Source of the DNA: a virus
IMG/VR virus record: IMGVR_UViG_3300037963_004084
Location: 1 to 61,627 of that record
Length of the DNA: 61,627 bases
Reading direction: 5' to 3' (one strand)
Part shown: positions 1-61,627 of the stretch, in pieces
How the letters are laid out: the number at the start of each line of letters is the position of its first letter
Numbering within the stretch: the first letter of the stretch is position 1
Notes under the pieces: model-generated
What the model saw: only the letters and a program-made list of their open reading frames with translations
The model's database searches: none
What the model was told of the DNA's origin: nothing
Translations under genes and position numbers: made by a program

Positions 1-98
1 TTTTCAGCGGGGGTAGATTTGGGGTCCGTAACTTTCTTGAAAAGATCTGACTGTCTCTCAAAAGAATTCAATAACGGCTCGATGTCGCCCAGAGGAGT
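1..98. repeat. Left copy of the 98-bp terminal direct repeat
   Basis: Bases 1-98 are identical to 61529-61626; the next base differs (a at 99, g at 61627). The repeat lies inside the giant minus-strand gene and both copies are in the same frame, so joining them gives one continuous reading frame. This is what a circular assembly with k-mer overlap looks like. A short physical terminal repeat is less likely because it would cut the giant gene in two. Confidence 0.9.
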
Positions 99-3000
99 AA
101 TTTGGTTGGCGTCTAGACCCCGCTGCTCAGGAATAAAGCCCGCGTCCTCTGGCTTATTGCTATCAAGAGCTTTCAATGCTCCGACAATACGTTGAACTAC
201 CTGTTGGTAGTTTGAGTTCCGCTCCCCACGGAGAGAGGGGCCTAATCTAGCTACAATCTTTGTGAGTTGTCTACTAAGCGCCGTGACGTATGGAGAACTT
301 AGACCGTCAAGGGCATCAGCAAAAACCGATTCAGTTGTAGCCCCCTTCACCACCCGCTGCACATCCATGCGGACCATCTCAGACAATGCGATTGCCATTT
401 CTTTTGGGGACCCCTCTCTAAGAGCCTGTAATTTGGGTTCGGCGTCCGCCTCCGCTTTCTCCCGCGTCTCTGGACGGAGGTAATTAAATCTATCACTTAC
501 CTGTAAGTAGTCTTTGTATGCCTCTACAAGAGCATCAATACCCACCTCTTCAAGTATCGCCTCTCTTTCAGCGTCTGTAACTACTAGTTCGTCTACTACG
601 TGGACAGTCTCTTCTAGTGTCATCAGCTCAAGCTCATTTCTAACTCGCCTCGATGCGAGTCGGAACATCTCTAGAGCTTGGGCTCCACCCTCTTCACTAG
701 CAAGATGGGCAGGGTCGACCGAGCCTACGCTAGACAGATATTGAATGTCACCTAGCAGGTCGGCCTGCGACTGCAAAGCATCGGTGTTAAAGTTAACCTG
801 TGTGATCGTTTTCTGTACCCCACCTTCTTCTATGGTAATCACCTCTTTAAAGGCGGGCGCAAACGCTTTGAAACCCAGACCCCGACTCCTTAAATCCTCT
901 GCATTAGTAAACACTACTCGCACCCCCGTAGGAACTTGCCTACTTACTTCATCTCTGAGGAGCTGCGAAAACAGAACTTGCTCTGCAAGGCTAGCCTCTT
1001 CGTCGCCAGATCGTCCTTCTTCTCTAGCTTTGACAAAATCATCAAGATACGATTTGAACAAATCAATCTCGGGTCCGTCAACGAGTCCCTGAGATAGTCG
1101 TTTATCTAGGTCCGCGCTCAGACCTCTCTTCAACCCAACAAGGTCAACCTGTTGTTGGACCCCCGCAATAATCCTAGCTCGGGTATCCTCGTAAGATTGA
1201 GTAAGATCTCGGGAGCCCCTCAGCTTCGCAAAGTTATAAATAGTATCAACTACTTCGGCTTGCTGTTTCTCAACACCCGTCCGTACACCGAACATGGTCT
1301 TGATCGCATCAATAATTCTACGGAACAGACTCCTGTCACCAACAGCTATCTTGCGGGTAGCCTCTTGGAAATCAGAAGAACTGAGCCAGCTAGTAAAGAA
1401 TTCTTCAAACCCACGGGCGGCAGGGAGAATAACATCCGACCCTGCCGTACCCTCCATCGCTGCTTGGGACGCATCGAGCGTCGTCTCATCAGCCCCTGCA
1501 TAGAATGGAAGATCTCCACTAGCGGCAATAACGCCCGAAGGGCCCACCAGTCTAGCTGTCTGTCTTCCTGTCTCGAATACATAATCGAGATTGCGGTTCG
1601 CTATACCTCTCTTCTTAGAGTTTTCCCACTGCTTGCGAGCGCGATCATAGACCACCTGCATTTGTTTTTTGGCAGCTCTCTGACCAGACGTAAGTTCTGC
1701 GTCAGGGGCGGATATAATCCTCTGGAAAACGGCATGACCTACTTCGTGCAGAATTACAGAGATGACGCCATCCCCATATCTGCCGCTCACATTCACAGTA
1801 ACTTCCCCCGTAGGGCTGAAGCTACCGGCAAAGTGATTGCCAGCCTCAATTATAACTGGAGTTAAGTTTGTTCTTATGTAGTCCTCAAATTGAAGTAGAA
1901 GATCTGCGGCCATACGGTGGTCTGGGCCAGCATTCTTGAGGACATTGATGAGGGATTCTACGTCTCTGTTTTCTAAACCAAGATCGGCGATCTCTTGGAT
2001 GTTCATCTCCTTAATTCTTTCTTGGAACTTCTTATCCAAGAAACTAGGAGCGTAGTCTGCCTCCGACCGTGACCTGTAACCGTTGACCACCTTAACAACA
2101 TCCGTCGCGTCCAATTCTATGCCCGCGCCTTGGACGATTGCGGTTGCCGCTGTCCCACCCGCGAGTCCTCCTCCCATCGCGTTGATCGAATATAAATACA
2201 AGATCGCAGCCCCCGCTCCCTTAGAAGCGCCCAACCGCGTTGAGCCGCCCATCATTGCGGAGCCCAGCGCCGTCACTGTAGACTGCATAGATTCGTTCAC
2301 AGAATCCGGTACAGTGTCGGACCACCCCTTGGGTAGCGCGCGCATAGCCTGTTCAAATCTATCTATCACCTCTAACACAGGCGTATCATTCTCGATACCG
2401 AGATTTATGATGCCCGCCCCTTCCAGAGCTTCGATGTAACTCCTGATTACCCGTGCGTCAGTAGCTAGGAAGTAATCTCCCGCCTTAGCCTGAATTTCCT
2501 TGATAAGTGGATCGACCTCTACTTCTCCAACACCCGCCAGTGTGCTAGTGTCTGGTGCGTCTTCTTTGGGGGCTTCATCTGGGGAACCCGTGTCTGATGG
2601 AGAGGCGAGCTCAGCAGGTTGGACAACCGACCCCGATTCAGCTCGGGCTTTATCAGATATCTGTTTAGTAGATGCTTTATCCAACCTATTATCGATATCC
2701 CCCTTGGCGGCATTATAATTAGGAGTGGGTTTCTCAGAGTTTGCACGGCTTCCTTCCGACGCCGCCCCCTCATGTCTTGTAAGATTTGAAATATGTTCCG
2801 CAACCGCATCAAAAATGCTCTGGCCTTCTCCAGTTGGGATACCCCTCCCCAAGAATTTGCTCAGCACAAACCCAAACAATTCGTTTGCGGTTTCAAAATC
2901 AGCTTCTGTTTTACCCGTCAGCTTAGTCAGATCAGAAAAGTCTTTCTCACCCCTATTGAAGAGAGCCATAATCGCCTCTTCGTTAGTCTGTCCTTCAGAC

Positions 3001-6000
3001 TTGTTCGTCACTGCTTGAAGTATGGCGACCTCTACGGCGAAGCGGGCTCCCTTCGCGTTCAAATCCAAAGTGAACGTATACCTCGCATCTTCTTCACTGT
3101 TAGAGAGGAGTTTCAAGTTCTTTATGCTCCTCGTACTCAGTGGGAGCGGCTGGTCGTATATGTAGACGCCTTTGTCATTGATGCTCCCACTTAGCAGCCC
3201 CTCAACATACGACAGAATTCTTTGAATTGTCTGAGCAATAGTTAGAGACTCTTCCACTCGACCAGACCCTCGGGTGGGGTCTTCCTTGTTTAGAGAAACA
3301 TCTATTCGCGCACTGGTGTTAATAAACTGCAACAGAGTATTGGTTTTTTGTGCCTCTGTAGTGGCCAATTCATCTGCGCTGCTGGTTTTCTTGTGGGTGT
3401 AGTTGCCGCTAGCCCTCACCTCGGAACCACTCCCGTCTCCTACAGGGTAGTACACAGACCTCACCTCCCCCACATCGGCTGCACTCTCCCGCCCATGTGT
3501 ATCCGCTCGGAGAGTCTGGTTGACTTTCTCTCTCGGAAAATCTTTAGGGATGGGGATCGAGTGGACGTTCACTACCTGATCGAGAGCCACCTTCATGGCT
3601 CTGGGATCGTTGTTAAACAGAATCACAATCTCGTTAGTACCACCGTTGCCTTTGCCATCATCGAAGATGCCTCCGGGGGTATCTCTAATCGTGTATATGT
3701 CTGTCTTGCTGAACTGTTGTCTGGTCTTCTGTAAGGTCGCCCATTGTTCGTCGGGAACCTTTGTTCCCATGATAGACTCTAAACTCGCCCTTACTTCCTT
3801 CTCCGTTGTCAGCGGAGAGCCGCTCTCATCAAACTGAACGAGAGGATACCTCGCGTATACGCCTTCAAACTCTCGGTCAGCCGCAGCTTTCTGATCGGTA
3901 GGGTTTACTTTGATGCTTGAGGGGAAACCAAACACGGCGGTCCCCATCCTCCTCAGCGCATTTTTAGCGCCTCCCCTACGAAGGGCACCCGCTTCTACGT
4001 CTTCTTCTACAATAGCGTCGAGTTCGTCCTTGGCCTTCTGTTTAGGGTCGATTTCCAAAAGGACACCTTTGTCCTGTTTCACGGGTCCCTTACCCGCATC
4101 CCTATCAGGCTTCTTCTCACCCTTGGTGGTGACTTTTTCTACATTGGTGGGGTTGCCCTCTTCATCTGTATCAAAGAGATAGATTGGAACTGTATCCACC
4201 AAGTCTCCCAAGTCGTCGCGGAGCTTTTGCTCAGTTGAGCGGTATTTCCTCTCAGTTCCTGTCCTAGGGTCGAGCCCTTCTAATTCTAGAGCCCTGTCGT
4301 AAAACCGATCAGCATCCCTATCTAGTATCTTGGACTCCCTCTCTAGTTCCTCTATCTTCTTTTGCTTGGCTGCAATATGCGGAAGGTCGCGCGCGTACCT
4401 AGCAAGGTATGCGATTGTCTCAGCATCTGAGCCAACCGGAACATTTAGCCTAGTATTTATAGTCAGCGGCCCCCGTCCCGAGCGTGCCAAAGTTCCCGAG
4501 ATGATCTTAAAAGCATCTCGGCCCTCAGACACATTCCCTCGGGGAGCGAATATAATAACAGCTTTTCCCTCGGGGGTTACTAGCTGCCATGTTCCGCCTT
4601 CGTTTTTCTTTACCGCTTCTTTGGAACTCGTTTCTATTTCATCTATTAGTGCCTTAATCTCATCTCTGAGCTCCCCGCTCTGCTCCATTTTTTCTGTAGC
4701 GAGTTTAGCGAGTTTACCTGACTCAGCCTCATCTACGGAAATCTTTTCATCAGCCTCGTAGATATCACGCTCGGCAAGGATCTCAACAAGCTCAGGCTGG
4801 GCCTCTTGTTTTAGTACTCCATCGTTGAAATTATATCCTTTGGTTTCTACAAACTCCCCCAACGCCGGATCAAAAACCAAGACAATGTTATTGAGAGATT
4901 GGTTCGGCTTGGTGCTATCGAGGGTTACGTTGGTTCCGGGCGCAAGGCCCGTAAGCATACTGGGTATATCTGCGGGATCGCGTACACTGTGCAGAACGTG
5001 GGGGGAATTAAAGGCTTTAGCCGTGGTTCCTGATTCCTGACCCGTGGTTCCTGATTCAGGGGCTGGAGGTGTGGGTGCGGGCAAATCCGCTTCGTCCTTC
5101 CCCGCTATATCCCAATCTCGACGATCAACCGAGGTGATCTCCTCTCCTTTGGCGAGCTTAGCTTGAATCTCCTGAACCCGCTTGGCGAAGTATGCGTCAG
5201 ACTTGGCCTGCACCTCGGGAGTGACTCCTGAAGTATCGACCTGCGGCTCCCCGGCTATCTCACGCATATAGTTCTCGATAGTAACTAGGTCTCGCTCGTT
5301 CTCGAATCGCTCACCCCTATCAAAACCTTCAGGAGGATCTTGGAGCTCTGCTCGTAGGCGTTGATGCCTATCACGGAGTTCTTCCAATCTTTCCTGAGGT
5401 CTCGGGTCACCCGCCTCCGCCGCTTCATCTGCCTTTGCTTCAGCACGGGCCTCCAAATCCCGTCGCTCTTTTGGGCTAAGGGGTGTCGGATCAACCGATT
5501 CTTCCTCGGTCTCTGGCTTTGAGACAATACTGTCAATAGCCGTTTCAGAAATGTCGCCCGAGCGTTTGCTCTTGGAGAACATAGCTAGATAGACAGCTCC
5601 TCGTCTATCGTCCTCTTTCCGTTTAAGAATTTCTATGTCCCCCTCACTCTTATAAATATCAGATCGTACAATCGTACCTTTCGGATACTTTTCTGTATCC
5701 CCGTCCACATCCTCGTCCACATCCCCGTCTACCACTGGGTCTGGCTCCAGCTCTTTCCTACGAGTATTAAGCGCCAGAAGATCTTCGAGGGTATCTTTTA
5801 ATCTCCCCAAAAGCTCCAGCTCTGCTGCACGGGTTCCTTTATCAGAGAGATCCCTTCGACGGGCCTTATAGGCAATCCTCTTGTCCAGTGCATCTATCAA
5901 ACCCTGTGTGGGTGTGTCCGTGAAATAATCCTGCCCCACTCCCCCACGGTATGCTCTCGGAGGGCCAGCTTCTGCGCGTTCCTTAAGAGCATCTAGCCCA

Positions 6001-9000
6001 TTTTTGATGCTGCTGATTGTTTGTTTCAGGACGGGCTCATCCCTTTCGATACGGGCCAAGTCCTCTGCCTCTTGTGGGTCTCGCCGAACCTGAGACATCA
6101 ACTCTTCTACCTCTGCTGTGGCATCCTCTTTTGTCATGCCCCTCCCCACAACGAGCGCGTTGATAAGCTCGCTTTTAGCGTCGGGTGTAACAGCAGTCCC
6201 GCCTGTACCCGAAGACTCTTGCGCGGAAGACGACTCTGCTTGAGCTCTGTTAGCCGCCGCGACCGCCTCACTCTGCTGTTCTGCTGTGGAGTTTTCCACA
6301 TTAGCGTCCGCATCACCCTCGGTGATCCCAGTCTGTAGCTGGTGAATAATGTAAGCTACAAGATCCTTCTGTTCTTGAGTAAGGTCTTTATCAGCCGCGA
6401 ATTCTTCAATCTGAGAAATGATCGCCTGCCTTTCAACCAACGAAAAATCATTGGGATTCAAAATGACCGGCAGCATCTCAGCCGACAAAACCTCCAGACC
6501 GATTGATTGTAGAAAGCCTAGGATTCTTTCTTCCTCCGCTAGTGCAGCTTCTTGTGTTAGCTGCGCCTCTGATTCGGCAATTTCAGGTGAAGAACGCTGT
6601 AGAGATGTCCCAAGTTGATCCGCTATTTGCTTTTCAATAGCTTCTCTTTCTTTCTTCGATTTCGCGGCGGCGAGCTTTTCTTGAAGCGGCTTTACTCTCT
6701 CTGCTGCGGCCCTCTCCCGCTGATCTTCGAGCTGTTGCTGGGCTTCGTCTGCGGCTGCTTGCGTGTCCGTGTCCGTGTCCGTAGGGGTGGATGCGTCTGC
6801 GGCTGCGGCTGCGGCTGCGGTTGTGGCTGTGGCTGTGGCTGAGGCTGTGTCTACCTCCGGTTGGGCAGACGCTTCGTCCATCGCAGCGAGAATCTCCTCA
6901 ACTGTGTTGGCAGTTTCTGTGCTTCCGGTAGCCTGTAGCTTAGCGACAGTTTGCTCCCTGATATCGCTGGCTATTTCACGACGGACTCTCGCCTCGGCCC
7001 CCTCTCCCATCGTCCCCCTGTTTGCACGGGACTCAAGAGTTCCTCTGACACCACCACCAAGAGCCCCCAGACCCGCCCCATATGCAGCACCAATGAGCCC
7101 TTCTTTTGCGCGGTCTAAAAATGGGCGATCCCAGTCATCTGCGGAAGTTCCTCTGGCCCCCCATGAGCGGGCGTACGTGTTGAGTAAAGCGTCCGACCCT
7201 TCCTGAAGGGATTCCGCAAGTACTCCGCTGCCCGTTCTCTTTAGAAAGGTATGGCTCATTTTAGCTAAACCCTTCTCTAAGACTTTACTAGTTATGTCTT
7301 TCGTAGCTTCCCCTAAAGAAGCATAGGGTTTCTGCCTTAGTTTCTCTAGTATGGCTTTAAGTCCGCGAGTAGTCCCTCCTCTAGCGGCCCACGTTTCTAA
7401 GCCACCCAATCCCAGTCTCTTCAAAGGTCCCACGCTACCAAGACTGTGGAGACCAAGTACGGTAGCTACCGTAAAAAACCCACCCAAGAAAGCCGCTCCC
7501 GTCGCCCTGTCCTCGATCTCTTCGGCGCTGAGAGGCTTGCCATCAGCGTCGGTAGCCCCCTTCAAAAGCATGTGCATGTCTCCATACGTGTGCCCCGCAG
7601 AGCGCAAAAAAGCGGGAGCCGCCATCGCGGGGAACATCACTCTTTTGGAGCGCATTCCTTTTGCCGCAGCTTCAAAAAGTTTTACCGCCGAGGTTGCCTC
7701 AGCGGTCTTTGCCACCCCCTCGCGTACGAGAGGCAGGGGTTTAACTTTGATAAGCTTCTTCTCTATTGCCTTCTTTACTGTGGCCTCCACAGATTCTTCA
7801 CCGGCTTCTTTCAGGAGTGTCCTCATTCCCCCGCCCACCAGACCAGCAGCATAAGCCTTAGCGGTGCTCCGAACACCGTACTTAGTCCCAGCCGCACTCA
7901 GGTACATAGCGCCCCCCGCGCCCCCCGTTGTCACTGTTAACCCTGTGGTGGCCGTAAGGTCTACAGCTAGCGGGGCGATAAACATCACCCCATCATCCAC
8001 GTATGACGCTTGTTGCCCAAAGATAGAGCTAAGAGCTTTATTCGCCTCACGTTCCGCCGCCCCCTGTTTAAGAATATCCCCACCTAACTTCTCCAAGAAA
8101 ACAGGGTCATCCCCAGAAGTGACTAGGTTTTGAGCCTTACCCGCAATGAGGGAAAGCGCCCCCACCAGATCTCCAGAAGCCTGTAAAATAGATCTGCCAA
8201 CTCGATTATAGAAATTTTTTCCGCTCTCTGTGTCCAGCCATTCTCCTAAAATCTCCCCCCGCGATTTGCTGGATTTAAATTTAGGATCGTATAGATCGGT
8301 CGTTTTAATGTGGTTGAGCCACGAATTTCTTAGATCTGCGGTCCCGTCGAAAATACTATCGACAATCGTTTCATATGAGTCGTCGAGTTTCTTCTTCCTA
8401 AGAGCGCGGAGACGCTCCTCTAGCGTCCTACCCTCCGAGTCTTTGGTTTCTCCCTGTAAGTTTATGAAAACCTTATCTCCATCTTCGTCTACATCTGGGA
8501 AGTAAAGGTCTTTTCGCTTCGAGAGATTATTAAAATCTTCGCTTGCCAGTAGCAACGAGGGATGAATATAAGACTGCTTAGTTACTGGGTCTTGATATAC
8601 ATTTTGCTCAACTCTCTCTAGAGATTGCTTTGCTCTGGTCTTTTTGCCAGTGAAGATAAAACTCTTTTTCTCATGGTATGTTACAGCCCCCGTTTGGACT
8701 GCGACATTCATAGCTACCGATCTAAGAGCGTGAAGTATCTCTTTATCACTTAGGTGCCCTCGTAGTGGGTAAAGTGTTCTAAAGTCTTTTAACGCTTCCC
8801 TGTAGTCTTGTGTGACTACCCTGTTGTACTTGCCAACACCAGCCTTGGTCACGCCGGTAGGAACACCATCCACTTCAATAAACTCATGTACCTCACCCCC
8901 CTGCGGTTTAACGTGAGAAGCCCCTACTTGTTTTATAAGGGCACGTAAACTATCATACAGGTAGCTGTCGGTGGGGACCGACCTGATTAACCTCTCTGCT

Positions 9001-9764
9001 TCGTCTGTATTTCGTGTCGCAGTAGAGCCCTTTGCAGGATTCTTCAGACTATCAATAACTTGCCCTTTAAGCCTTGGGTCTATTGCCCCCGCCTGAATAG
9101 ACTTTGTAACCTCCGCGTCTATATTTTCTTGAGGGATGTCCTTACTAACTATCTGCCCATTTATAATCGCTACACCAAGTCGCCCATCAGACAGCTTGGT
9201 TCTCAACCGGTCTTCTTCTGTGCCCTCTACAAGAAGTTTCAAGGGATCTTCAAACCCCTGTAAGTAGCTCAACTCCTCGTCAGTAAGAGATTCTCTTTCG
9301 CCCTCCATGTTAGGCTCAAGAATATCCGCCCCGACTTGTTTTTCTCTGAGTCGGGCGAACCTAACGGGATTAAAGCCTGACTCTTCGAGGCCATAAAAAA
9401 TATCCCCCACACTAGACCCGTCTTCATTTGTTGACGAGTAGTCTCGTCTCAAACGGAAATAGTTTTCCAGTACCTCGGACTCTTGCTCAGCATAAGGGAC
9501 CTCGGAAACTCTATCGAGAGCTTCGTTGAGTTCTTCTAGGGAGCTAAAGCCCTCAACTAGAAACCTGTCGGCTACTTCGGTCGCCCCCTTTTTTTGCAGG
9601 GGACTTTCGATCTTACTGATAAAACCTTCTATATAATTTCTGAAGGAATTACGCAGAGCAAAATCGTCTTCGGGGTCTATAGGTCTGTTCCTGTGATCAA
9701 CAGGATTAGTCTTCTTCCACTCACTAAATGAGAGTGCGTCTTTAAGCTCATTCAACGATGACAT
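1..9764 (-). CDS. Giant polyvalent virion-associated protein, N-terminal 3,254 codons (continues across the circle junction)
   Basis: Reading the minus strand from ATG 9764-9762 (MSSLNELKDALSF) I met no stop down to base 1. The frame continues at 61528 and ends at 57811, giving 4,493 residues. N-terminal half: charged helical sequence. Hydrophobic glycine/alanine-rich segments fall at about residues 590-680 (nt 8000-7720), 755-790 and 885-905. An Ala/Thr/Asp low-complexity linker at about residues 974-1002 is encoded by gctgcg/tgtccg triplet repeats (nt 6760-6843). A second Gly/Ala hydrophobic stretch is at about 2490-2560. A zincin motif HEVGH at residues 2673-2677 (nt 1734-1748) is followed about 80 residues later by GFEEFF, whose Glu may be the third zinc ligand. 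Large polyvalent proteins of phages are thought to be packaged and injected with the DNA; that role here is inference. It follows TerL and two helical proteins in one minus-strand transcription unit. Confidence 0.88.
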   Translation of the reverse strand, partial: MSSLNELKDALSFSEWKKTNPVDHRNRPIDPEDDFALRNSFRNYIEGFISKIESPLQKKGATEVADRFLVEGFSSLEELNEALDRVSEVPYAEQESEVLENYFRLRRDYSSTNEDGSSVGDIFYGLEESGFNPVRFARLREKQVGADILEPNMEGERESLTDEELSYLQGFEDPLKLLVEGTEEDRLRTKLSDGRLGVAIINGQIVSKDIPQENIDAEVTKSIQAGAIDPRLKGQVIDSLKNPAKGSTATRNTDEAERLIRSVPTDSYLYDSLRALIKQVGASHVKPQGGEVHEFIEVDGVPTGVTKAGVGKYNRVVTQDYREALKDFRTLYPLRGHLSDKEILHALRSVAMNVAVQTGAVTYHEKKSFIFTGKKTRAKQSLERVEQNVYQDPVTKQSYIHPSLLLASEDFNNLSKRKDLYFPDVDEDGDKVFINLQGETKDSEGRTLEERLRALRKKKLDDSYETIVDSIFDGTADLRNSWLNHIKTTDLYDPKFKSSKSRGEILGEWLDTESGKNFYNRVGRSILQASGDLVGALSLIAGKAQNLVTSGDDPVFLEKLGGDILKQGAAEREANKALSSIFGQQASYVDDGVMFIAPLAVDLTATTGLTVTTGGAGGAMYLSAAGTKYGVRSTAKAYAAGLVGGGMRTLLKEAGEESVEATVKKAIEKKLIKVKPLPLVREGVAKTAEATSAVKLFEAAAKGMRSKRVMFPAMAAPAFLRSAGHTYGDMHMLLKGATDADGKPLSAEEIEDRATGAAFLGGFFTVATVLGLHSLGSVGPLKRLGLGGLETWAARGGTTRGLKAILEKLRQKPYASLGEATKDITSKVLEKGLAKMSHTFLKRTGSGVLAESLQEGSDALLNTYARSWGARGTSADDWDRPFLDRAKEGLIGAAYGAGLGALGGGVRGTLESRANRGTMGEGAEARVRREIASDIREQTVAKLQATGSTETANTVEEILAAMDEASAQPEVDTASATATATTAAAAAAADASTPTDTDTDTQAAADEAQQQLEDQRERAAAERVKPLQEKLAAAKSKKEREAIEKQIADQLGTSLQRSSPEIAESEAQLTQEAALAEEERILGFLQSIGLEVLSAEMLPVILNPNDFSLVERQAIISQIEEFAADKDLTQEQKDLVAYIIHQLQTGITEGDADANVENSTAEQQSEAVAAANRAQAESSSAQESSGTGGTAVTPDAKSELINALVVGRGMTKEDATAEVEELMSQVRRDPQEAEDLARIERDEPVLKQTISSIKNGLDALKERAEAGPPRAYRGGVGQDYFTDTPTQGLIDALDKRIAYKARRRDLSDKGTRAAELELLGRLKDTLEDLLALNTRRKELEPDPVVDGDVDEDVDGDTEKYPKGTIVRSDIYKSEGDIEILKRKEDDRRGAVYLAMFSKSKRSGDISETAIDSIVSKPETEEESVDPTPLSPKERRDLEARAEAKADEAAEAGDPRPQERLEELRDRHQRLRAELQDPPEGFDRGERFENERDLVTIENYMREIAGEPQVDTSGVTPEVQAKSDAYFAKRVQEIQAKLAKGEEITSVDRRDWDIAGKDEADLPAPTPPAPESGTTGQESGTTAKAFNSPHVLHSVRDPADIPSMLTGLAPGTNVTLDSTKPNQSLNNIVLVFDPALGEFVETKGYNFNDGVLKQEAQPELVEILAERDIYEADEKISVDEAESGKLAKLATEKMEQSGELRDEIKALIDEIETSSKEAVKKNEGGTWQLVTPEGKAVIIFAPRGNVSEGRDAFKIISGTLARSGRGPLTINTRLNVPVGSDAETIAYLARYARDLPHIAAKQKKIEELERESKILDRDADRFYDRALELEGLDPRTGTERKYRSTEQKLRDDLGDLVDTVPIYLFDTDEEGNPTNVEKVTTKGEKKPDRDAGKGPVKQDKGVLLEIDPKQKAKDELDAIVEEDVEAGALRRGGAKNALRRMGTAVFGFPSSIKVNPTDQKAAADREFEGVYARYPLVQFDESGSPLTTEKEVRASLESIMGTKVPDEQWATLQKTRQQFSKTDIYTIRDTPGGIFDDGKGNGGTNEIVILFNNDPRAMKVALDQVVNVHSIPIPKDFPREKVNQTLRADTHGRESAADVGEVRSVYYPVGDGSGSEVRASGNYTHKKTSSADELATTEAQKTNTLLQFINTSARIDVSLNKEDPTRGSGRVEESLTIAQTIQRILSYVEGLLSGSINDKGVYIYDQPLPLSTRSIKNLKLLSNSEEDARYTFTLDLNAKGARFAVEVAILQAVTNKSEGQTNEEAIMALFNRGEKDFSDLTKLTGKTEADFETANELFGFVLSKFLGRGIPTGEGQSIFDAVAEHISNLTRHEGAASEGSRANSEKPTPNYNAAKGDIDNRLDKASTKQISDKARAESGSVVQPAELASPSDTGSPDEAPKEDAPDTSTLAGVGEVEVDPLIKEIQAKAGDYFLATDARVIRSYIEALEGAGIINLGIENDTPVLEVIDRFEQAMRALPKGWSDTVPDSVNESMQSTVTALGSAMMGGSTRLGASKGAGAAILYLYSINAMGGGLAGGTAATAIVQGAGIELDATDVVKVVNGYRSRSEADYAPSFLDKKFQERIKEMNIQEIADLGLENRDVESLINVLKNAGPDHRMAADLLLQFEDYIRTNLTPVIIEAGNHFAGSFSPTGEVTVNVSGRYGDGVISVILHEVGHAVFQRIISAPDAELTSGQRAAKKQMQVVYDRARKQWENSKKRGIANRNLDYVFETGRQTARLVGPSGVIAASGDLPFYAGADETTLDASQAAMEGTAGSDVILPAARGFEEFFTSWLSSSDFQEATRKIAVGDRSLFRRIIDAIKTMFGVRTGVEKQQAEVVDTIYNFAKLRGSRDLTQSYEDTRARIIAGVQQQVDLVGLKRGLSADLDKRLSQGLVDGPEIDLFKSYLDDFVKAREEGRSGDEEASLAEQVLFSQLLRDEVSRQVPTGVRVVFTNAEDLRSRGLGFKAFAPAFKEVITIEEGGVQKTITQVNFNTDALQSQADLLGDIQYLSSVGSVDPAHLASEEGGAQALEMFRLASRRVRNELELMTLEETVHVVDELVVTDAEREAILEEVGIDALVEAYKDYLQVSDRFNYLRPETREKAEADAEPKLQALREGSPKEMAIALSEMVRMDVQRVVKGATTESVFADALDGLSSPYVTALSRQLTKIVARLGPSLRGERNSNYQQVVQRIVGALKALDSNKPEDAGFIPEQRGLDANQITPLGDIEPLLNSFERQSDLFKKVTDPKSTPAE

Positions 9765-44774: not shown

Positions 44775-45062
44775 CTACTCTGAAATAAAGTTTGACCCCT
44801 CCCTCTTCTCCGCTTTCGCCTTACGAAGCTCTTTGAGCCGTGCACGGTTTTTTAAATAATATGCGCGGTTGTATGCACGCTTTTTTTCGGCCAGCTCGGG
44901 GTCTGCCAATAGGTCTAACGCCCTTTGTTTCAGTATCTTAGCCTTGTTCGCAGCGTAGTACTTCCGTTGGTAAGCCTTTCGTGCTTCGTGGTTCTTTAGA
45001 TAGTATTCGTGCTTCTTCTGGTCACGCATACTGCGTTTTATCGTGCATTTGGGGGTAGTCAA
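44775..45062 (-). CDS. Small basic protein with repeated YYLKN motif (95 aa)
   Basis: Lys/Arg/Tyr-rich helix with repeats KKHEYYLKNHEARKAYQRKYY and YNRAYYLKNRARLKE; similar repeats occur next to HNH endonucleases and in DNA-binding phage proteins. A start at M12 (about 45029) is possible. Its promoter would lie in the AT-rich palindrome at 45064-45107. Confidence 0.55.
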   Translation of the reverse strand: MTTPKCTIKRSMRDQKKHEYYLKNHEARKAYQRKYYAANKAKILKQRALDLLADPELAEKKRAYNRAYYLKNRARLKELRKAKAEKREGSNFISE

Positions 45063-45063
45063 A

Positions 45064-45107
45064 TTTTTTCACACAACATACACACACAACACATAGTTGT
45101 GAAAAAA
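45064..45107. repeat. AT-rich inverted repeat at a transcription divergence
   Basis: TTTTTTCACA (45064-45073) and TGTGAAAAAA (45098-45107) pair over 10 bp with a CA-rich loop. It separates a leftward gene from the rightward structured RNA, so it may hold divergent promoters or a binding site. Stems end in A on both strands, so it is not a terminator. Confidence 0.55.
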
Positions 45108-45109
45108 AT

Positions 45110-45790
45110 GAGGCAGGGTGGGGGTGGCGTGGTTCGTGATTCATGGTGCAGGATTCGGGCGCGGGATTCGCGGATTTGGGTCTGGACCCATTGTGGGGTG
45201 ATAGGAGCTTCCCCGAGGTTCAAGTCCTCCCTCTCCCTAGCTGACCAGATGCTGTGTTCTGGTGATCCCCGCCCGGGATCTCAAAGTGCGGGTGTCGTCA
45301 ATAGACGGCTTGTCCATGCGACGAATAGCATGGGGGCTCTACCGGATGGAATCTGCCTGAGTCCTGAGCGCCTGCCATGTAGCGCAATACAAGTAGCATG
45401 TGCTAGCCTGAGAAGTAACAAGCCTTTGCGCTACCGTAGCGCAATAATGCTTCGTCGGATAGGCCGGGATTGACGAAGGTAGCAATACCCCTTGCAAATA
45501 GTGAGGTTCATTCTCAATGTGACTGGATGATTGGTAGACCATTCTCACGCCACCTTGTGGCGTGTATCGTGTGAGAGTAACCCGTGCTAGGACCACGGGG
45601 GAGGAGCAGGCGTGTGGGCTACCGTGGCCAACAGGGGCGCGATTAGATGCGCGTAAAGATTAGACCCCGACAAACCTTGAGTACAAGGTGACGCCCAATA
45701 GCTTATGATGAAATTGGGGTGTTCATATTTCACCACCGTGAATGACTCACGATGGTGATTCGTGAACATCACAATAACATCACAAATATC
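45110..45790 (+). ncRNA. Candidate large structured non-coding RNA (about 0.65-0.7 kb)
   Basis: No plausible gene in 45063-45798. Clear perfect hairpins: ACCAGA/TCTGGT (45244-45263), GATCCC/GGGATC (45264-45280), CCATGC/GCATGG (45314-45333), TTCGTC/GACGAA (45451-45477), CACGCCAC/GTGGCGTG with 3-nt loop (45546-45564), CCCGTG/CACGGG (45581-45599), ACCTTG-AGTA-CAAGGT (45674-45689), CCCAAT/ATTGGG (45694-45718), and a compound hairpin at 45721-45767 (GTTCA + CACCA + CGTGA and partners). A tRNA T-arm-like GAGG-TTCAAGT-CCTC lies at 45215-45229. Size and density resemble phage giant RNAs such as GOLLD or ROOL, but it was not matched to either. Confidence 0.55.
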
Positions 45791-45798
45791 CAAGCAAT

Positions 45799-46242
45799 AT
45801 GACCGTCAAAGAACTGAAAGCCAAATTGACTGCCCTTGACCTGCCAACCAGCGGAAACAAGGAAGCGCTCAAAGCTAGGCTCGCCTCGGCGAACAAGCCT
45901 AAGCCTACCAAGAAGTCGAAGGGTGACCCCGCCGCCGCCGCCGCTGTGGCGAATGTCCGGCAAGGCGTGGAACTCCTTCACTCGGAGTTTGGGGAGGACG
46001 AACTGAAGGGGATTCTCCACTTCAAGCCCTTCTCCAATAACCCGAAGAGCTTCGTGCTGAGGCTTCCCAACATGAAGGAAGCCGCTGCCGCGTTGCCCTT
46101 CACAAACGAGGCGAAGGAGGCGATTGCCCTCCTCCGCAAGTTGCGCGGGTCCGTCGCAGCCGCATTCGGAGATGCGAACCAGTGCTGGGTCCTCCACGCT
46201 AGTGGGGGTGCCGCAGTCTTCTCGCAGCTCCATCTCAAGTAA
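45799..46242 (+). CDS. SAP-domain protein (147 aa)
   Basis: N-terminal SAP motif: MTVKELKAKLTALDLPTSGNKEALKARL has the helix-turn-helix Leu pattern and G-K-A-L that bind DNA or RNA. Residues 40-55 are Lys then Ala-rich; the rest is mixed. It stands alone between two structured non-coding stretches. Suggests it binds the RNAs or the DNA of this region; not shown. No Shine-Dalgarno is visible. Confidence 0.75.
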   Translation: MTVKELKAKLTALDLPTSGNKEALKARLASANKPKPTKKSKGDPAAAAAVANVRQGVELLHSEFGEDELKGILHFKPFSNNPKSFVLRLPNMKEAAAALPFTNEAKEAIALLRKLRGSVAAAFGDANQCWVLHASGGAAVFSQLHLK

Positions 46243-46257
46243 CCCCCACATTCATCC

Positions 46258-46318
46258 CCGCTCTTCGGAGCGGCGGGTGACATGGTTCATGGAACCTGTG
46301 TCCATGAACCCTGTCACC
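46258..46318 (+). ncRNA. UUCG hairpin followed by 17-bp hairpin
   Basis: CCGCTC-TTCG-GAGCGG (46258-46273) is a stable cUUCGg tetraloop hairpin. Two bases later GGTGACA-t-GGTTCATGGA (46276-46293) pairs with TCCATGAACC-c-TGTCACC (46301-46318), 17 bp with one mismatch. No U run follows, so these are structure, not a clear terminator. They immediately follow the SAP gene's stop. Confidence 0.75.
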
Positions 46319-46447
46319 TGATTCCTGATTCCCGATTCATCATACGTGATCCACGGAATCCGGTGAGGTATCACGCTCCCCGATACTCAGGTATTGAGTT
46401 ACCTAGACCAGTTAAGGCACTGGCTGTGAACACAGCTAGGGAGTTTC

Positions 46448-46474
46448 TCCTAGGCATGAGGCTAAACTGCCTAC
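46448..46474 (+). repeat. R hairpin repeat, copy 1
   Basis: TCCTAGGCATGAGGCTAAAC followed by TGCCTAC. TAGGCA (46451-46456) pairs with TGCCTA (46468-46473); the loop is tgaggctaaac. Confidence 0.85.
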
Positions 46475-46698
46475 GACTTTATGTGGACTGATATATTAAC
46501 CTTAACCAAGGAGGGTTCTACCATGAACTAAACACAGCCCACTGCGGGAAGCAGACGACCCTGCACCCACCCGTTCCGCGCCCACACCTGTGGGACTGCC
46601 CTTGCGGCGAGAACGTGGGGTGTAGGATAGTCATATACCCAACCACCCGAGTTCTGGAGCGGTGGTTGGGGTGTATGCACCCACACTTTCACTTTATC

Positions 46699-46730
46699 AC
46701 TCTGTTTGCCTGACGAGCGGTAGGGCAAAC
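46699..46730 (+). repeat. S hairpin repeat, copy 1
   Basis: ACTCT then GTTTGCC (46704-46710) pairs with GGCAAAC (46724-46730); loop tgacgagcggtag. Repeated 295 nt downstream. Confidence 0.8.
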
Positions 46731-46753
46731 CAACATGATAAGGCCGCGACCCC

Positions 46754-46780
46754 TCCTAGGCATGAGGCTAAACTGCCTAC
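46754..46780 (+). repeat. R hairpin repeat, copy 2
   Basis: Same 27 bases as copy 1 (46448-46474), 306 nt downstream. Stem TAGGCA/TGCCTA conserved with identical 11-nt loop. Confidence 0.85.
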
Positions 46781-46965
46781 CAACCCTAACCTTCTCCTCT
46801 AGCACTCTGGCATTGGAGTCGTATACCACATGAGTCTTCCCGCGGTGGGAGAATGACAAATCCGCAACGGTTGTGGACCGCCGAATTGGTCCTAGGCTCG
46901 CCTCTCCGTGCCTCTCATAATACAGAAAACGGAGACACGCTGGGTGTCGTGTGAACCACGCCCGC

Positions 46966-46992
46966 TCCTAGGCATGAGGCTAAACTGCCTAC
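46966..46992 (+). repeat. R hairpin repeat, copy 3
   Basis: Same 27 bases, 212 nt after copy 2. It ends directly before the second S hairpin, giving an R-S unit. Confidence 0.85.
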
Positions 46993-46993
46993 G

Positions 46994-47025
46994 ACTCTGT
47001 TTGCCTGACGAGCGGTAGGGCAAAC
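46994..47025 (+). repeat. S hairpin repeat, copy 2
   Basis: Same 32 bases as the copy at 46699-46730; GTTTGCC (46999-47005) pairs with GGCAAAC (47019-47025). Confidence 0.8.
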
Positions 47026-47112
47026 ACAATAGCACCGCTAAGGGTTGTCCCTTCCGCAGCCCATTAAACAGGAAGGCCGAGCGGTCGCACTTAGAAAGGC
47101 TCAGCGACTCCC

Positions 47113-47139
47113 TCCTAGGCATGAGGTTAAACTGCCTGT
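47113..47139 (+). repeat. R hairpin repeat, copy 4 (variant)
   Basis: Differs from the others at GGCTAA to GGTTAA in the loop and TGCCTA to TGCCTG at the stem end. The latter changes an A-U pair into a U-G wobble that still pairs if the plus strand is the RNA, but would be a C-A mismatch on the minus strand. Confidence 0.8.
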
Positions 47140-47247
47140 GTCTGATCAGCCACCTGTCAGACCACTAGCGGTATACCGCACCAAGACGCTGAAGCGATAA
47201 GTCCTACGGACGCGCAGGCCCGCCGAGTCTAGGGTGGTTCTCTTTCC

Positions 47248-47269
47248 AAGGGTAAACCCGAACCCTTTT
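47248..47269 (+). terminator. Terminator-like hairpin at the end of the repeat RNA region
   Basis: AAGGGT (47248-47253), loop AAACCCGA, ACCCTT (47262-47267), then TT. Weak but oriented for the plus strand, which fits transcription of the repeat region on that strand. Confidence 0.45.
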
Positions 47270-47306
47270 CAATCGGGCAAGTAGTATAACTAACCAAACC
47301 AAAACA

Positions 47307-47557: not shown

Positions 47558-47860
47558 ATGAAGTATGCAATCCCAATCGGACTCGCCCTCGGCGGTGTCC
47601 TGTCCATGCTGTGCGGAACTTACTGCATAGCCGCAGACCTTGAGCTTCAACAGCTCGGGGTAGACGTTGACTCAACGTGGAGTTACCTCTACACATGGGT
47701 CAGTTGTAGTATGGCCCTTACCGCCATTGTCACCCTTGAAGTAGTCCACCAGCGGGAGTGCCGCAGGTGGGATGAAGAGATGAGCAGACTGCAATCATGC
47801 AGTGAGCGAATACTGATTCCTGAACCCTTTACCCGGAATTATTATGAGAAAAGAAATTGA
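47558..47860 (+). CDS. Two-helix membrane protein (100 aa)
   Basis: Hydrophobic segments at residues 4-26 (AIPIGLALGGVLSMLCGTYCI) and about 45-65 (LYTWVSCSMALTAIVTLEV), then a charged cytoplasmic-type tail. Possibly superinfection exclusion or host-membrane modification. Overlaps the next gene by 17 nt. Confidence 0.6.
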   Translation: MKYAIPIGLALGGVLSMLCGTYCIAADLELQQLGVDVDSTWSYLYTWVSCSMALTAIVTLEVVHQRECRRWDEEMSRLQSCSERILIPEPFTRNYYEKRN

Positions 47861-48421: not shown

Positions 48422-48632
48422 CCAATTTCGGGGTAGCTCCCCGAACGTGAGTGACTGAATAATCTTTCTACAACAGAGATAAGGTATCTGTATCTTGAGC
48501 AGGGGTCAACCGACTGAGCAGAGAGAGCGGAGTGCGAGTAGGCAAACGATGCTATGTTGGAGCCGAAAGTTGAGGGTAAAAAATAAATCCCTCCTCACAT
48601 CTTATATTTATTATGACACCATATGTAAAATT
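48422..48632 (+). other. 211-nt leader with hairpins and a duplicated start site
   Basis: Starts with TTCGGGG-tagct-CCCCGAA (48427-48445), a 7-bp hairpin without U run, and ends with GAGGG/CCCTC around 48571-48597. A 20-nt tandem duplication (48611-48630, 48631-48650) contains two ATGs. No gene is seen in between. Confidence 0.5.
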
Positions 48633-48650: not shown

Positions 48651-49067
48651 ACCCATGCCGTCTCACGGCACAACTCCGAGGCGAAGACCCTCGACACAAC
48701 CACTTACCGGATCGGTAAGTGGAGAATAAACCTTGAGGGGTTTATTGATTACTACGGAACCTACAACTACAGGTTTGGAGTTAATGGAGGCACCCCGACC
48801 TACAGTGGAGAGATCTACTGGAGCGCGGACACCAATGGGGTGGGTTACAGGAATCACCTGAAGAAAGCCGACGCTTTCCTCGATAAGATGAGGACTGAGC
48901 ACCCCCTCCACGGCCCCCCGAACATCAACCCCTTCGGGTACCTCATCCCCTTGGATGGACAACCCAAGGGCTGCATTGGGACTCATGTCTCCGATCCGGG
49001 GGAATTCGCAATGAACCGCGAAATCGCAGAGGAGAATCCCGATTACCCCGCGTGGATCTTTGAGTGA
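48633..49067 (+). CDS. Hypothetical protein (144 aa)
   Basis: Start ATG 48633 in the second duplicated copy. Beta-rich start (YRIGKWRINLEGFIDYYGTYNYR) and acidic C-terminus; no family. Part of the rightward accessory block; the GTG of the next possible ORF overlaps its stop. Confidence 0.6.
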   Translation: MTPYVNTHAVSRHNSEAKTLDTTTYRIGKWRINLEGFIDYYGTYNYRFGVNGGTPTYSGEIYWSADTNGVGYRNHLKKADAFLDKMRTEHPLHGPPNINPFGYLIPLDGQPKGCIGTHVSDPGEFAMNREIAEENPDYPAWIFE

Positions 49068-49279
49068 ACCCACTTTCTGGCCCCTCGCCACGCAAGTCGC
49101 TTGGGGCCTATAGTAGGCCGAACGGCATGGGTAAAGTGGCCCATGTCATCCCCCATAATGGCCCGTTGTTGGAGGGGGAACCCAGTCGGGGGATAATACC
49201 GACACTGGTTGATGTAGCTCAGGCCAGAATAAAGAACCGTGCTGCGAGGAGATGCCCCCGCCTCTCCCATGTAGGATAA
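49064..49279 (+). other. Ambiguous small ORF or structured RNA
   Basis: A GTG-initiated 71-codon frame (GTGA overlap with the preceding stop) is open, Pro/Arg/Gly-rich. But the DNA also carries hairpins GGCCTA/TAGGCC (49107-49121) and CATGGG/CCCATG (49126-49145). Either a small basic protein or a leader RNA for the next gene. Confidence 0.35.
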
Positions 49280-49286
49280 ACCCCGC

Positions 49287-57584: not shown

Positions 57585-57814
57585 TCCATATAGTTCGTGA
57601 GTTCTTGCCCAACGGTATTCCCATCATGATCGACGGGGTATTAGACGGGGAACGTGTGGCCCCCGCTTCTACCCGCATCTTCCCCCTTAGTGTGGGGGAA
57701 GATGCGCCGTCTGTGATTGGCACTCCCTACTATTGCCACCACGACCCCGACGGCCTTGGTAAGAAGATAGCCACCCGCCTCACCAAGGTTTATGTAGACT
57801 CAATCCCCGACTAA
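57581..57814 (+). CDS. Hypothetical protein ending convergently to the giant gene (77 aa)
   Basis: MIHIVREFLPNGIPIMIDGV...; small beta-rich protein, unknown. Its last codon overlaps the giant gene's stop by 4 nt, so no terminator space exists between them. Confidence 0.55.
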   Translation: MIHIVREFLPNGIPIMIDGVLDGERVAPASTRIFPLSVGEDAPSVIGTPYYCHHDPDGLGKKIATRLTKVYVDSIPD

Positions 57815-60800
57815 GGGGTGTCGGACCCTTGACCCGTGTAGACATCCTCGTATTGTTTCTCTTGAGAGATTCTTCTTACCGCCGCGTCATAAATACGGGC
57901 TCGTTTGTCGGGCCATTCACCGTCGGGGTCGGCTTTCAAGAGATCTATATACCAAGCCTTTGAAGGGAGGTAACGCTCGGTCTTACTTCTCATTACCGCC
58001 TTAGCTCGGTTCTTCCCAACACCCGCTTTGGTAAGCGCGTTGTATATCTGCTCATCCGTGAGCCGAAGTGCGGGCTCTTCAAAGTTTCTCGATGTTTCAA
58101 TCATGGAGATCAGTTTCCGATCAGTTTCCACCGTGTTCTTAACGGCTCTTCTTGCTAGGTCTTCGATCTCTTTGTCGGTGTACGACACACTACCGTCCTT
58201 GAGTTTATCTTTAATAAGGGTTCTTACCCCCTCCCTTTCTCGGTTTATCTCATAAGCTACTGTCCGCATACCTTGAGATGGATCTACCACCCTCACTTTG
58301 AGTGGTGCCATAACGGAGGAGAGAGTTTGCTCCGCTCTTTTCTGAACGTCTGGATCGTCGGCGTCTCTTTCCTTGTAGTACCTCTTAAGCTTCTCAAGAT
58401 TAGAAGGCAGCACAGTATCCAGCACAACCCTGTCAAAGACAGCCGAAAGCCTTTCGGTATTGTCCATCCCTTCTTTCAAGAGAGGTCTACCATCTGGGTC
58501 TTCACCTTTAATAAAGAGCTTCGCCAGTGTATCTGGTACTTGGCCGAAAGGAATCGCGTCAACTGGGTCGAATTCTAGTTTACCCGTTGTACGGTTGGTC
58601 GAAAATGTCTGCCCCAAGAATCTCTCAAGGTACGTCATGTACATTGTAGCGGCAGCTTCCTTGAACCCTGTACCTGCTTCCCCTTCCTTCATCCCTGCGA
58701 GGGCTTTTATGAGAGCTTGTTGTGATCCATCAAGCACGGGAGACATCCCGTTGATGTAAGTGATATCAACCGAGTAAAGCTTGTTCGGATCAATCTCAGA
58801 GGGTAGCCCCGAGAACATATCAATAATCTGGGGCACGGAGGTCAGCCCCAAGTCAATCAGGGTTTCACCCTTAACGTGAAAGTATGAGTTGTTCCGTGCG
58901 TAAGATGGTCTATTCGCTTCCAACAATTCTTCTTCCTCTCTATCAAGTATGACCTTGAGAGCAAGGAACGTGGAGCCCGTGACAACTCCAGCAAAAGAAC
59001 CATGTGTCAGCATGGACCCCAGCCGCCGCTTCCTTCCATTACTCTCAATGATGGGATTCCTGTCCTTGGTCTCTCGATGAGAAGTACCCGTCAATATTTG
59101 GTTGTAGAAAATCCTAAATTGATCCACAAAGAAACCACTGAATGCATCGAAGAAAAATGGGTTTATTCTCCTAATAACCCTCTGCAACAGCGTATGTTCA
59201 GAGTACGTGGGGGCAACTGACACAGTTTTCTGGGCCGCAAGTTGTTGTTGCGCCTCTTCAGACATGTTCAGGTAACCCAAGTCTACCCCGTTATCTTTCT
59301 CGTACTTCTGCGCTTTGTTGAGGACGCGCATTTCTTTTTTGTATATAGCAACTTTGGTAGCCGTATCAATGGCTTGAGCTATAGATGCTACGATATCATA
59401 AGATATTTTGAATGGGGCTTTAGCTACGTCTTTTACTTTACCCAGTCTGGATTTCTTTGATGCCTCAAAGACATCCCCCAAAGACTCGAAGAAAAGTTCA
59501 CTTATGTCCCCCGACCTTCCTCCCGCAAGTTGTTGGTTAATCAAGGTTAGTTCTAAGGTCCTCTGATCAATACCAAGCATCCTGTATTCTGTGGCGCTTA
59601 GCTCCGTTTCACTACCGGGCCTACGTTCGGGAGATATTACAGACCCAGCTCTGAAAGGTTGGCGCAATCTGGATAAAAACAGGATAGCCAATTCTTTCGC
59701 AACATGGTGGGGACCCACCCCATTAGCAGACCCGTATGTAGTCACTGCTGTAATCATATTACGCAGCGGGTAAGCGGGGATATTGTAAGCAGTCTTAGCC
59801 ATGAGGAATATACCATTCACAATCTCGGTAGATCTAAATAGCATTCTCGTCGCTGCTTTTACCGGCTCTCTATCTTTGATAAGCCGAAGCACTGTCCGAC
59901 CCTCGAACATAGATGTACCTTTAGTGGTGCGGCTCACCTTTTGGTAATCACGAAGTGCTTTAAACCCTTCGGTAGGGATAAACATATCGTAAGTGAAATC
60001 GAACACCTCCCGACCCCTCTTTACAGTTTGGGATTCGTCTTCATCTGTAGTTACCCTGTCCTTGGAGTCTATGTAATCAGATAGCAACCTTCCGGTGCGT
60101 ACATTGGTGTATTCATTACCATCTAGGCCAGCGTCTATCGCTTCCTGTAGGGTGAACACGAAAGCCTTTTCAAAGTCACCATCTACCACACCACCGATAC
60201 GTTTAAGCTGACTAAAGAAGGACGACTGCTCTACCATTCTGGTCAAGGCATTGAAGGTTTGCTCGAACGCGATTAAACCTTTCTCTTCAAACGTCCCATC
60301 TTCATTGAATTCCAAACCGTATTGACCCAAAAGATACCTCACCCTTGGATCAAGATCCGTTTTCTTCTTGAGAGCGTCTGTATCTAGCTTTAGTAGCCGC
60401 CTAAGTTGTGGATGCTTCTTACTCAAGATGCTCGCCACATTTTGCGCCTCAACATCTCCGCGAGCCCTCTCCTCAATCGCCTTGAGTAGAGTGTTCATTT
60501 CCGCAATAGTTTCATTGCGCGAATCTTTAACCCTTAATTCAGCTCTTATCTTGGCTTCCTCAGCCATCTCGGTTTTGGAAAGCGCGGTTACCCGCTTCGC
60601 CTCCGCTTCTTCTTCAGGGGTTTTGAATTCTACTTCCTGCCCTAGTTTAGCTCGCAGCCCCTGCATCCTAGCTAATTCTTCTTTTATCTCTACATCTACC
60701 CGCAGCTCTTCAAAGTAACTCACGGCCACATCCCTGCGCGCTGCGAACTTTCCATTGGGTTTTTGAATTTCCTCTAAGTATGCAAAATCATCGTAACCTT

Positions 60801-61627
60801 TGTATCTACGAGTGAGATACACACCGCTCTGCCTGTCGATAACCATGTTGAGCCTACCTCCCCGAACTTCGCCCAATCCGTAATTCTTGGAGACTATCTT
60901 GCTCATGGCATCCAAAGAAGCTCTGATGGACTTCATCTTGAGGACAATCTCTGGGCCTAGCTTCGTGTCGTCATTGATGGTTTGATACGCAATCTTTTGT
61001 TTCTCTTTGTATGCTTTGACTCTCTCAACGCGAGCGTCCTCCAGAGGAATTCTAACCAATACACGCTTTATACTTGCAAGGGCCTCGGGTTCAGCATCTG
61101 TATCGGGGCGCTTACCGGCCTTTACTTCTTTCTTAATCCGCTTCTTTACCGCTCTGTAGGTTGCCTTCAAATTTTCTTTAAACTCTGGTTCTACGTCTAG
61201 GTTATCAGTTGTCCCCGCCGCCGTGTTCAAAGCTACCAGTATGTCATTAGGAATATCGTTCTTGTAGGCCCTCTTCAATAGCTTGATAAGAACTGTAAAG
61301 TCGGAAGTCTTCTGGCCTTCCATTGCTGTCGCCCACAACTGTAGCTTCTTTATAATCTCTTGCACCCGTGGGTCCTGATCCCCGATCTTAAGCTGTTGGG
61401 TAATCTTCTTGATGCCCTTTAACGAACTAGCCCCAGACCATTTTCCATTATTAAGTTCCAGCACTAGTTCCGGCTGCAATTCCGACTGAGCTACTTGCCT
61501 CTCCCTCACGGCTTTTATAGCTTCTAATTTTTCAGCGGGGGTAGATTTGGGGTCCGTAACTTTCTTGAAAAGATCTGACTGTCTCTCAAAAGAATTCAAT
61601 AACGGCTCGATGTCGCCCAGAGGAGTG
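57811..61627 (-). CDS. Giant polyvalent virion-associated protein, C-terminal part
   Basis: This is the C-terminal ~1,240 codons of the protein that begins at 9764. The residues encoded at 61529-61599 are the same as those encoded at 1-71, so the apparent Met start at 61599 is only an internal Met. The sequence is helical and charged, with a hydrophobic segment at about nt 58990-58930 (GVVTGSTFLALKV). It ends in a conserved-looking tail with PLRNMIT and NPFFFDAFSGFF motifs, like the C-terminal domains of large polyvalent phage proteins. The stop at 57811-57813 overlaps the last codons of the convergent plus-strand gene ending at 57814. No RNA polymerase motifs were found, so it is not obviously an N4-type virion RNA polymerase despite the similar size. 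Confidence 0.88.
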   Translation of the reverse strand, partial: TPLGDIEPLLNSFERQSDLFKKVTDPKSTPAEKLEAIKAVRERQVAQSELQPELVLELNNGKWSGASSLKGIKKITQQLKIGDQDPRVQEIIKKLQLWATAMEGQKTSDFTVLIKLLKRAYKNDIPNDILVALNTAAGTTDNLDVEPEFKENLKATYRAVKKRIKKEVKAGKRPDTDAEPEALASIKRVLVRIPLEDARVERVKAYKEKQKIAYQTINDDTKLGPEIVLKMKSIRASLDAMSKIVSKNYGLGEVRGGRLNMVIDRQSGVYLTRRYKGYDDFAYLEEIQKPNGKFAARRDVAVSYFEELRVDVEIKEELARMQGLRAKLGQEVEFKTPEEEAEAKRVTALSKTEMAEEAKIRAELRVKDSRNETIAEMNTLLKAIEERARGDVEAQNVASILSKKHPQLRRLLKLDTDALKKKTDLDPRVRYLLGQYGLEFNEDGTFEEKGLIAFEQTFNALTRMVEQSSFFSQLKRIGGVVDGDFEKAFVFTLQEAIDAGLDGNEYTNVRTGRLLSDYIDSKDRVTTDEDESQTVKRGREVFDFTYDMFIPTEGFKALRDYQKVSRTTKGTSMFEGRTVLRLIKDREPVKAATRMLFRSTEIVNGIFLMAKTAYNIPAYPLRNMITAVTTYGSANGVGPHHVAKELAILFLSRLRQPFRAGSVISPERRPGSETELSATEYRMLGIDQRTLELTLINQQLAGGRSGDISELFFESLGDVFEASKKSRLGKVKDVAKAPFKISYDIVASIAQAIDTATKVAIYKKEMRVLNKAQKYEKDNGVDLGYLNMSEEAQQQLAAQKTVSVAPTYSEHTLLQRVIRRINPFFFDAFSGFFVDQFRIFYNQILTGTSHRETKDRNPIIESNGRKRRLGSMLTHGSFAGVVTGSTFLALKVILDREEEELLEANRPSYARNNSYFHVKGETLIDLGLTSVPQIIDMFSGLPSEIDPNKLYSVDITYINGMSPVLDGSQQALIKALAGMKEGEAGTGFKEAAATMYMTYLERFLGQTFSTNRTTGKLEFDPVDAIPFGQVPDTLAKLFIKGEDPDGRPLLKEGMDNTERLSAVFDRVVLDTVLPSNLEKLKRYYKERDADDPDVQKRAEQTLSSVMAPLKVRVVDPSQGMRTVAYEINREREGVRTLIKDKLKDGSVSYTDKEIEDLARRAVKNTVETDRKLISMIETSRNFEEPALRLTDEQIYNALTKAGVGKNRAKAVMRSKTERYLPSKAWYIDLLKADPDGEWPDKRARIYDAAVRRISQEKQYEDVYTGQGSDTP
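61529..61626. repeat. Right copy of the 98-bp terminal direct repeat
   Basis: Exact copy of bases 1-98. If one copy is removed, the genome is about 61,528 bp and closes into a circle. The single mismatching last base (61627) is most simply an assembly-edge or variant base. Confidence 0.9.

Follow-up and report, generated by a model that had tools for sequence, protein, structure and literature searches.

What is encoded in the roughly 0.7 kb that part two divergent genes of an uncultivated virus of microbes, given that the stretch seemed to hold a large, ornate RNA and no protein? We analysed the record IMGVR_UViG_3300037963_004084 over its full 61,627 bases (hereafter the window), which carries 98-bp repeats at its ends. 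Positions 45110–45790 sit between a small minus-strand gene (44775–45062, 95 amino acids) and a plus-strand gene for a SAP-domain protein (45799–46242, 147 amino acids). The longest plus-strand open reading frame over this interval (45009–45473) is broken by single-base indels in L002, the single relative that has the whole element (91% identity). The frameshifts leave no conserved reading frame, and the description of about 0.7 kb without a gene upstream of the SAP-domain gene holds.

The plus strand of 45110–45790, whose candidate RNA we call RNA1, is more stable than its shuffles overall (z of −3 to −5). For 45110–45800 the minimum free energy is −272.6 kcal/mol, whereas shuffles give −244.7 ± 9.0, and the 662 nt that start at 45136 reach a z of −5.2. 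Because the minus strand likewise beats its shuffles (z roughly −3 to −4), folding of one sequence does not settle the strand. At least nine clear hairpins had been claimed in the preliminary description; a consensus fold with L002 in which the base-pair span is limited to 130 nt contains more, with 203 pairs in 27 helices. A tRNA T-arm-like element had also been proposed at 45215–45229. A hairpin, GAGG-UUCAAGU-CCUC, lies exactly there, and its A45216–U45228 pair is a compensatory U–A in L002, but ARAGORN found no tRNA or tmRNA in the 61.6-kb window: there is no complete cloverleaf or tmRNA, and the T-loop hairpin stands alone.

Covariation with L002 shows that the plus strand is the RNA. The two-sequence RNAalifold consensus has 220 pairs, ten of them with two-sided changes and none broken. 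As a null, substitutions of the same kinds were put randomly on the window sequence. Across folds, 10–11 two-sided changes are observed against null means of 1.5–1.7 (maxima 5–6), again with no broken pair: 11 against 1.7 (maximum 5) in the refolded consensus, and 10 against 1.5 (maximum 6) under the 130-nt span limit. When only the window sequence is used to predict the structure, six are seen against a null mean of 0.8, a count that 0 of 5,000 trials reach. The consensus energy falls 3–4 s.d. under that of simulated substitutions (−231.4 versus −203.2 ± 7.5 with the span limit, 0 of 200 as low) and is better on the plus strand (−248.8) than on the minus strand (−205.0); 11–13 one-sided changes are accommodated as G–U pairs on the plus strand. 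The covariation that the preliminary description expected of homologues is therefore present, in two sequences only, a number that cannot fix every helix or reveal pseudoknots. The unlimited and span-limited consensus folds disagree on long-range pairs and around the T-loop hairpin.

Folding, alignment with L002 and covariation together delineate a body with many helices at 45110–45690 (plus strand). Helices with two-sided changes include the T-loop hairpin, the adjacent hairpins 45244–45263 and 45264–45280 (three compensatory changes within 45244–45280), hairpin 45294–45309 (one two-sided and one G–U-compatible change) in a branched domain at 45288–45375, and, at 45407–45458, the stem 45407–45417/45448–45458 around hairpin 45426–45444 (three two-sided changes). 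They continue into the 3′ domain (45524–45690) with 45532–45624 and hairpin 45546–45564, the latter with two such changes; here hairpin 45578–45602 has two G–U changes and a GGGG/CCCC stem (45634–45668) is invariant between the window and L002. The 3′ domain is the basis of covariance model R1, and model R2 spans 45288–45405.

By sequence and by model, RNA1 occurs in two genomes (the window and L002), a count that is a lower bound. Patterns from its invariant stretches matched only L002 in IMG/VR, bacterial and archaeal contigs gave no match, and neither the whole element nor these patterns were found in named phages. R1 and R2 recovered only the window and L002 from 1.28 Mb of relatives, and R1 over 50 whole records gave L002 plus one 11.7-bit trace. 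The L053 record has a 28-nt match that lies inside an apparent small reading frame and was taken as chance.

The place that RNA1 occupies is kept more widely. A portal gene search yielded 80 relatives, in about 50 of which the slot is readable and tblastn finds the small gene beside it as a fixed left border. Next to this gene lies a promoter-like block (45063–45135, strand unassigned), ATTTTTTC..(TATATA)..AAAAA..GTGGCGTG, seen when the first 110 nt of every locus were aligned and shared by about 50 divergent relatives; over the first 75 bases of the slot it reads ATTTTTTC...TATATA...AAAAA...GTGGCGT. Because sigma-70-like matches in the block are weak ones only, we infer its promoter activity. 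Conservation among relatives is confined to the first 75–140 nt of the slot, and behind the block lie genes in some relatives and 0.5–1.4 kb without a large open reading frame in others.

Several of these relatives carry structured RNAs of their own in or near the slot. Two-sided changes number 21 pairs in L076/L078/L037 (null mean 3.8), 21 in L018/L019 (7.6) and 15 in L026/L031 (4.6). L013, L003 and L053, which have no alignable partner and are therefore judged by folding without covariation, fold better than shuffles (z of −3.3, −3.6 and −4.5, respectively). None of the relatives’ slot RNAs could be aligned with RNA1, and structural homology to those of L013 and L003 was rejected with R1 and R2 (best score 6.6 bits, filters off). 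In L013 the two borders persist, with the 5′ block on one side and the CAAGCAATATG leader on the other, around a different RNA, and a search of fourteen relatives with Rfam returned zero matches. Lineages differ in the structured RNA that fills the slot; the preliminary description did not recognize that this slot is variable, with RNA1 as one of its occupants. In L026 and L031, the covarying non-coding stretch follows the first gene of the slot, about 0.6–1.3 kb from the small gene, and contains repeats of CAATGATCTGTCAGGGC.

With roughly even confidence, we propose that the phage makes, from 45110 to about 45700, a new large structured RNA (RNA1), which fills the variable first-gene slot, shares a transcript with the SAP gene and is probably released at 45706–45782. 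RNA1 would be the first element of a rightward transcription unit adjoining the promoter-like block, and one transcript probably carries it together with the SAP gene, because no convincing plus-strand terminator separates the two. The long hairpin at 45706–45782 is nearly perfect, has symmetric internal loops and lies in a segment (45702–45786) that is invariant between the window and L002. Judged by its shape, it is a probable processing site, at which an RNase III-type cut would yield a free folded RNA and a SAP mRNA with a short leader (45783–45798); this leader lacks a Shine–Dalgarno sequence and includes CAAGCAATATG, common to L002 and L013. RNase III processing hairpins in the early mRNA of phage T7 are likewise long and placed between genes of one transcript, an analogy in which cleavage of the RNA1–SAP transcript is a prediction. 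A long hairpin lies 0–62 nt before the next start codon in most slot RNAs (the window, L002, L013, L003, L053, L076/78/37/51 and L018/19); these rank first or close to first among the hairpins of their 5-kb regions, and L028 has none before its next gene. Once freed, the RNA could act during infection as a folded RNA or a ribonucleoprotein, perhaps together with the SAP protein, which diverges along with it.

Divergence from L002 varies along the locus. Identity is 96–98% in the flanking genes, 91.4% over RNA1, 61% (DNA) in the SAP gene and 97% in the next 258 bases, and the RNA1 body and the SAP protein both diverge around the fixed hairpin, a pattern that would fit an arms race or local replacement. 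Three further patches (46501–46700, 47558–47860 and 49067–49286) differ strongly from L002 (39–53% identity or partly missing) in a backbone that is largely 92–98% identical, and are local hypervariable modules like RNA1–SAP. The SAP domain match is solid (E = 7e-10), and residues 48–116 give a sub-threshold Rpp14/Pop5-like Pfam match that falls in the same register in the two homologues (E = 0.0037 and 0.00019). An RNase P protein was rejected as the identity of this product, for which Foldseek finds nothing beyond the SAP domain and no Pop5 fold match. Neither the SAP protein nor the portal was found in named phages.

The same arrangement could instead reflect a cis-acting leader, in which the SAP mRNA would begin with some 0.65 kb of structured untranslated sequence that governs its translation or its stability. 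RNA1 is contiguous with the SAP gene on the same strand, with only 16 nt from hairpin to ATG and no convincing terminator between them, and we regard this explanation as somewhat unlikely but deserving of real weight. Its size would be far above that of known cis elements, the gene that follows the slot RNA differs among relatives, and the RNA body and the SAP gene diverge, yet the hairpin between them is invariant.

A third explanation, that the hairpins work as DNA, in a replication origin, a packaging site or a promoter site, has in its favour a divergent intergenic region that adjoins a conserved block. It is nonetheless improbable: the tolerance of one-sided changes as plus-strand G–U pairs and the clear advantage of the plus over the minus strand are as expected of RNA, and conservation among relatives stops after the first part of the slot.

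Descent from a known family (GOLLD, ROOL, OLE, HEARO, RNase P RNA, or group I or II introns), with strong divergence, would account for the similar size, the T-loop, the phage setting and the Rpp14/Pop5-like trace in the neighbouring protein, but is very improbable. At the gathering threshold, Rfam 15 matched manA alone (48427–48603) in the whole window and nothing in RNA1; at E ≤ 10, 44900–45900 gave only miRNA, snoRNA and tRNA-Sec traces far under the cut-offs, the tRNA-Sec trace (18 bits, E = 1.1) being the sole tRNA-like one. RNA1 is unmatched by the GOLLD and ROOL models even at E ≤ 10, and by those for OLE, HEARO, RNase P RNA and group I and II introns, although the same search tool did detect manA and tRNAs. 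For lack of an Rfam or ARAGORN match, GOLLD, ROOL, OLE, RNase P, introns and tmRNA were rejected as the identity of RNA1, and neither a tRNA island nor a Pop5 fold accompanies it. The preliminary description had placed RNA1 in neither GOLLD nor ROOL and suggested a large structured non-coding RNA of perhaps a new class; the Infernal searches (GOLLD, ROOL, HEARO and OLE among the models) agree and covariation bears this out, but the T-loop hairpin does not make RNA1 tRNA-like. Chance folding of a functionless G+C-rich stretch is scarcely credible: the minus strand also beats its shuffles, yet compensatory changes far exceed the null and RNA1 retains 91% identity next to a gene that retains 61%.

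GOLLD, which lies usually but not universally near a tRNA island, forms a closed 14-mer RNA cage, and ROOL assembles an octameric nanocage through kissing loops. Both are phage-encoded RNAs of about 0.6–0.9 kb with elaborate secondary structure, and in size, setting and structure RNA1 resembles them (PMC12286853). In contrast, RNA1 matches neither model, the window has zero tRNAs, and GOLLD and ROOL are families recognizable by sequence, whereas the RNA1 slot carries unrelated RNAs in close relatives. Vibrio phage ICP1, which lacks tRNAs, makes an orf-less transcript of about 800 nt from a gene-free gap, likened by its authors to GOLLD and ROOL on the basis of length (PMC7567579). RNA1 is likewise large, from a gene-free gap and in a phage without tRNAs, but the ICP1 transcript, which was seen by RNA-seq, opens the lysis cluster (PMC7567579), whereas RNA1 is predicted from sequence and adjoins a divergent promoter-like block. 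RNA1 has a new sequence and a new fold, and it is unusual for the conservation of its position rather than its sequence; its general kind, the large structured phage RNA, is already known.

Beyond the reading of RNA1 as a free phage RNA, the slot as a whole could be a hypervariable RNA cassette. Its first transcribed element would often be a large folded RNA, swapped or rebuilt from one close relative to the next (RNA1 in two genomes, others with unrelated RNAs). Such an RNA would diverge in step with a small protein and work, free or as a ribonucleoprotein, in an arms race over host takeover or counter-defence. We advance this tentatively and think it unlikely, but if true it would define large RNAs whose class is held together by position and promoter rather than by sequence. 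Few large ornate phage RNAs are known, and they have no assigned functions. One block-marked locus with several sequence-unrelated, covarying large RNAs in one phage clade offers a position-based way of finding such RNAs, and the slot allows one to ask which properties of fold or transcript persist while sequence turns over.

The next non-coding stretch, 46243–47306 (plus strand), which the preliminary description had passed over, is also rich in RNA structure. It contains four copies (46447–46472, 46753–46778, 46965–46990 and 47112–47137) of a compact RNA motif, NNCCU-[4-bp stem]-AUGNN-N2-3-UAAACU-[stem′], for which Rfam gave no match even at E ≤ 5. Among the IMG/VR matches listed, 110 of 122 have a complementary stem and represent at least 104 distinct places; nine copies lie 4–13 nt upstream of diverse tRNAs, and an open reading frame starts within 150 nt downstream in 65 of 104 places. 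With the first stem left free, cases other than CTC/GAG were, with a single exception, complementary (GAC/GTC 6, GTC/GAC 5, ATC/GAT 2, CAC/GTG 1 and one wobble). These complementary variants show that the motif is an H-type pseudoknot. Similar copies occur in cultured phages, marine ones among them (Lentibacter ICBM1-3, Synechococcus S-EIVl, Vibrio and Erwinia), and one form of the motif was absent from GTDB genome contigs. Being short and recurrent in many phages, including cultured ones, the pseudoknot is directly testable.

The copies are spaced 147–306 nt start to start by gene-free sequence with hairpins, and a 32-nt hairpin is repeated exactly at 46699–46730 and 46994–47025; 46243–47306 may encode several separate small RNAs in a row, each one preceded by a pseudoknot. 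The manA RNA (RF01745, 48427–48603, plus strand, 58.8 bits), another structured phage RNA of the same region, belongs to a separate known family and lies 2.6 kb downstream of RNA1. Another manA lies in L097, within an array of phage tRNAs where the pseudoknot occurs as well. At the two ends of the window, the long minus-strand frames 1–9764 (3,254 amino acids) and 57811–61599 (1,262 amino acids) have no Pfam or PHROG match; because the record ends repeat 98 bp, both may belong to one protein of about 4,500 residues.
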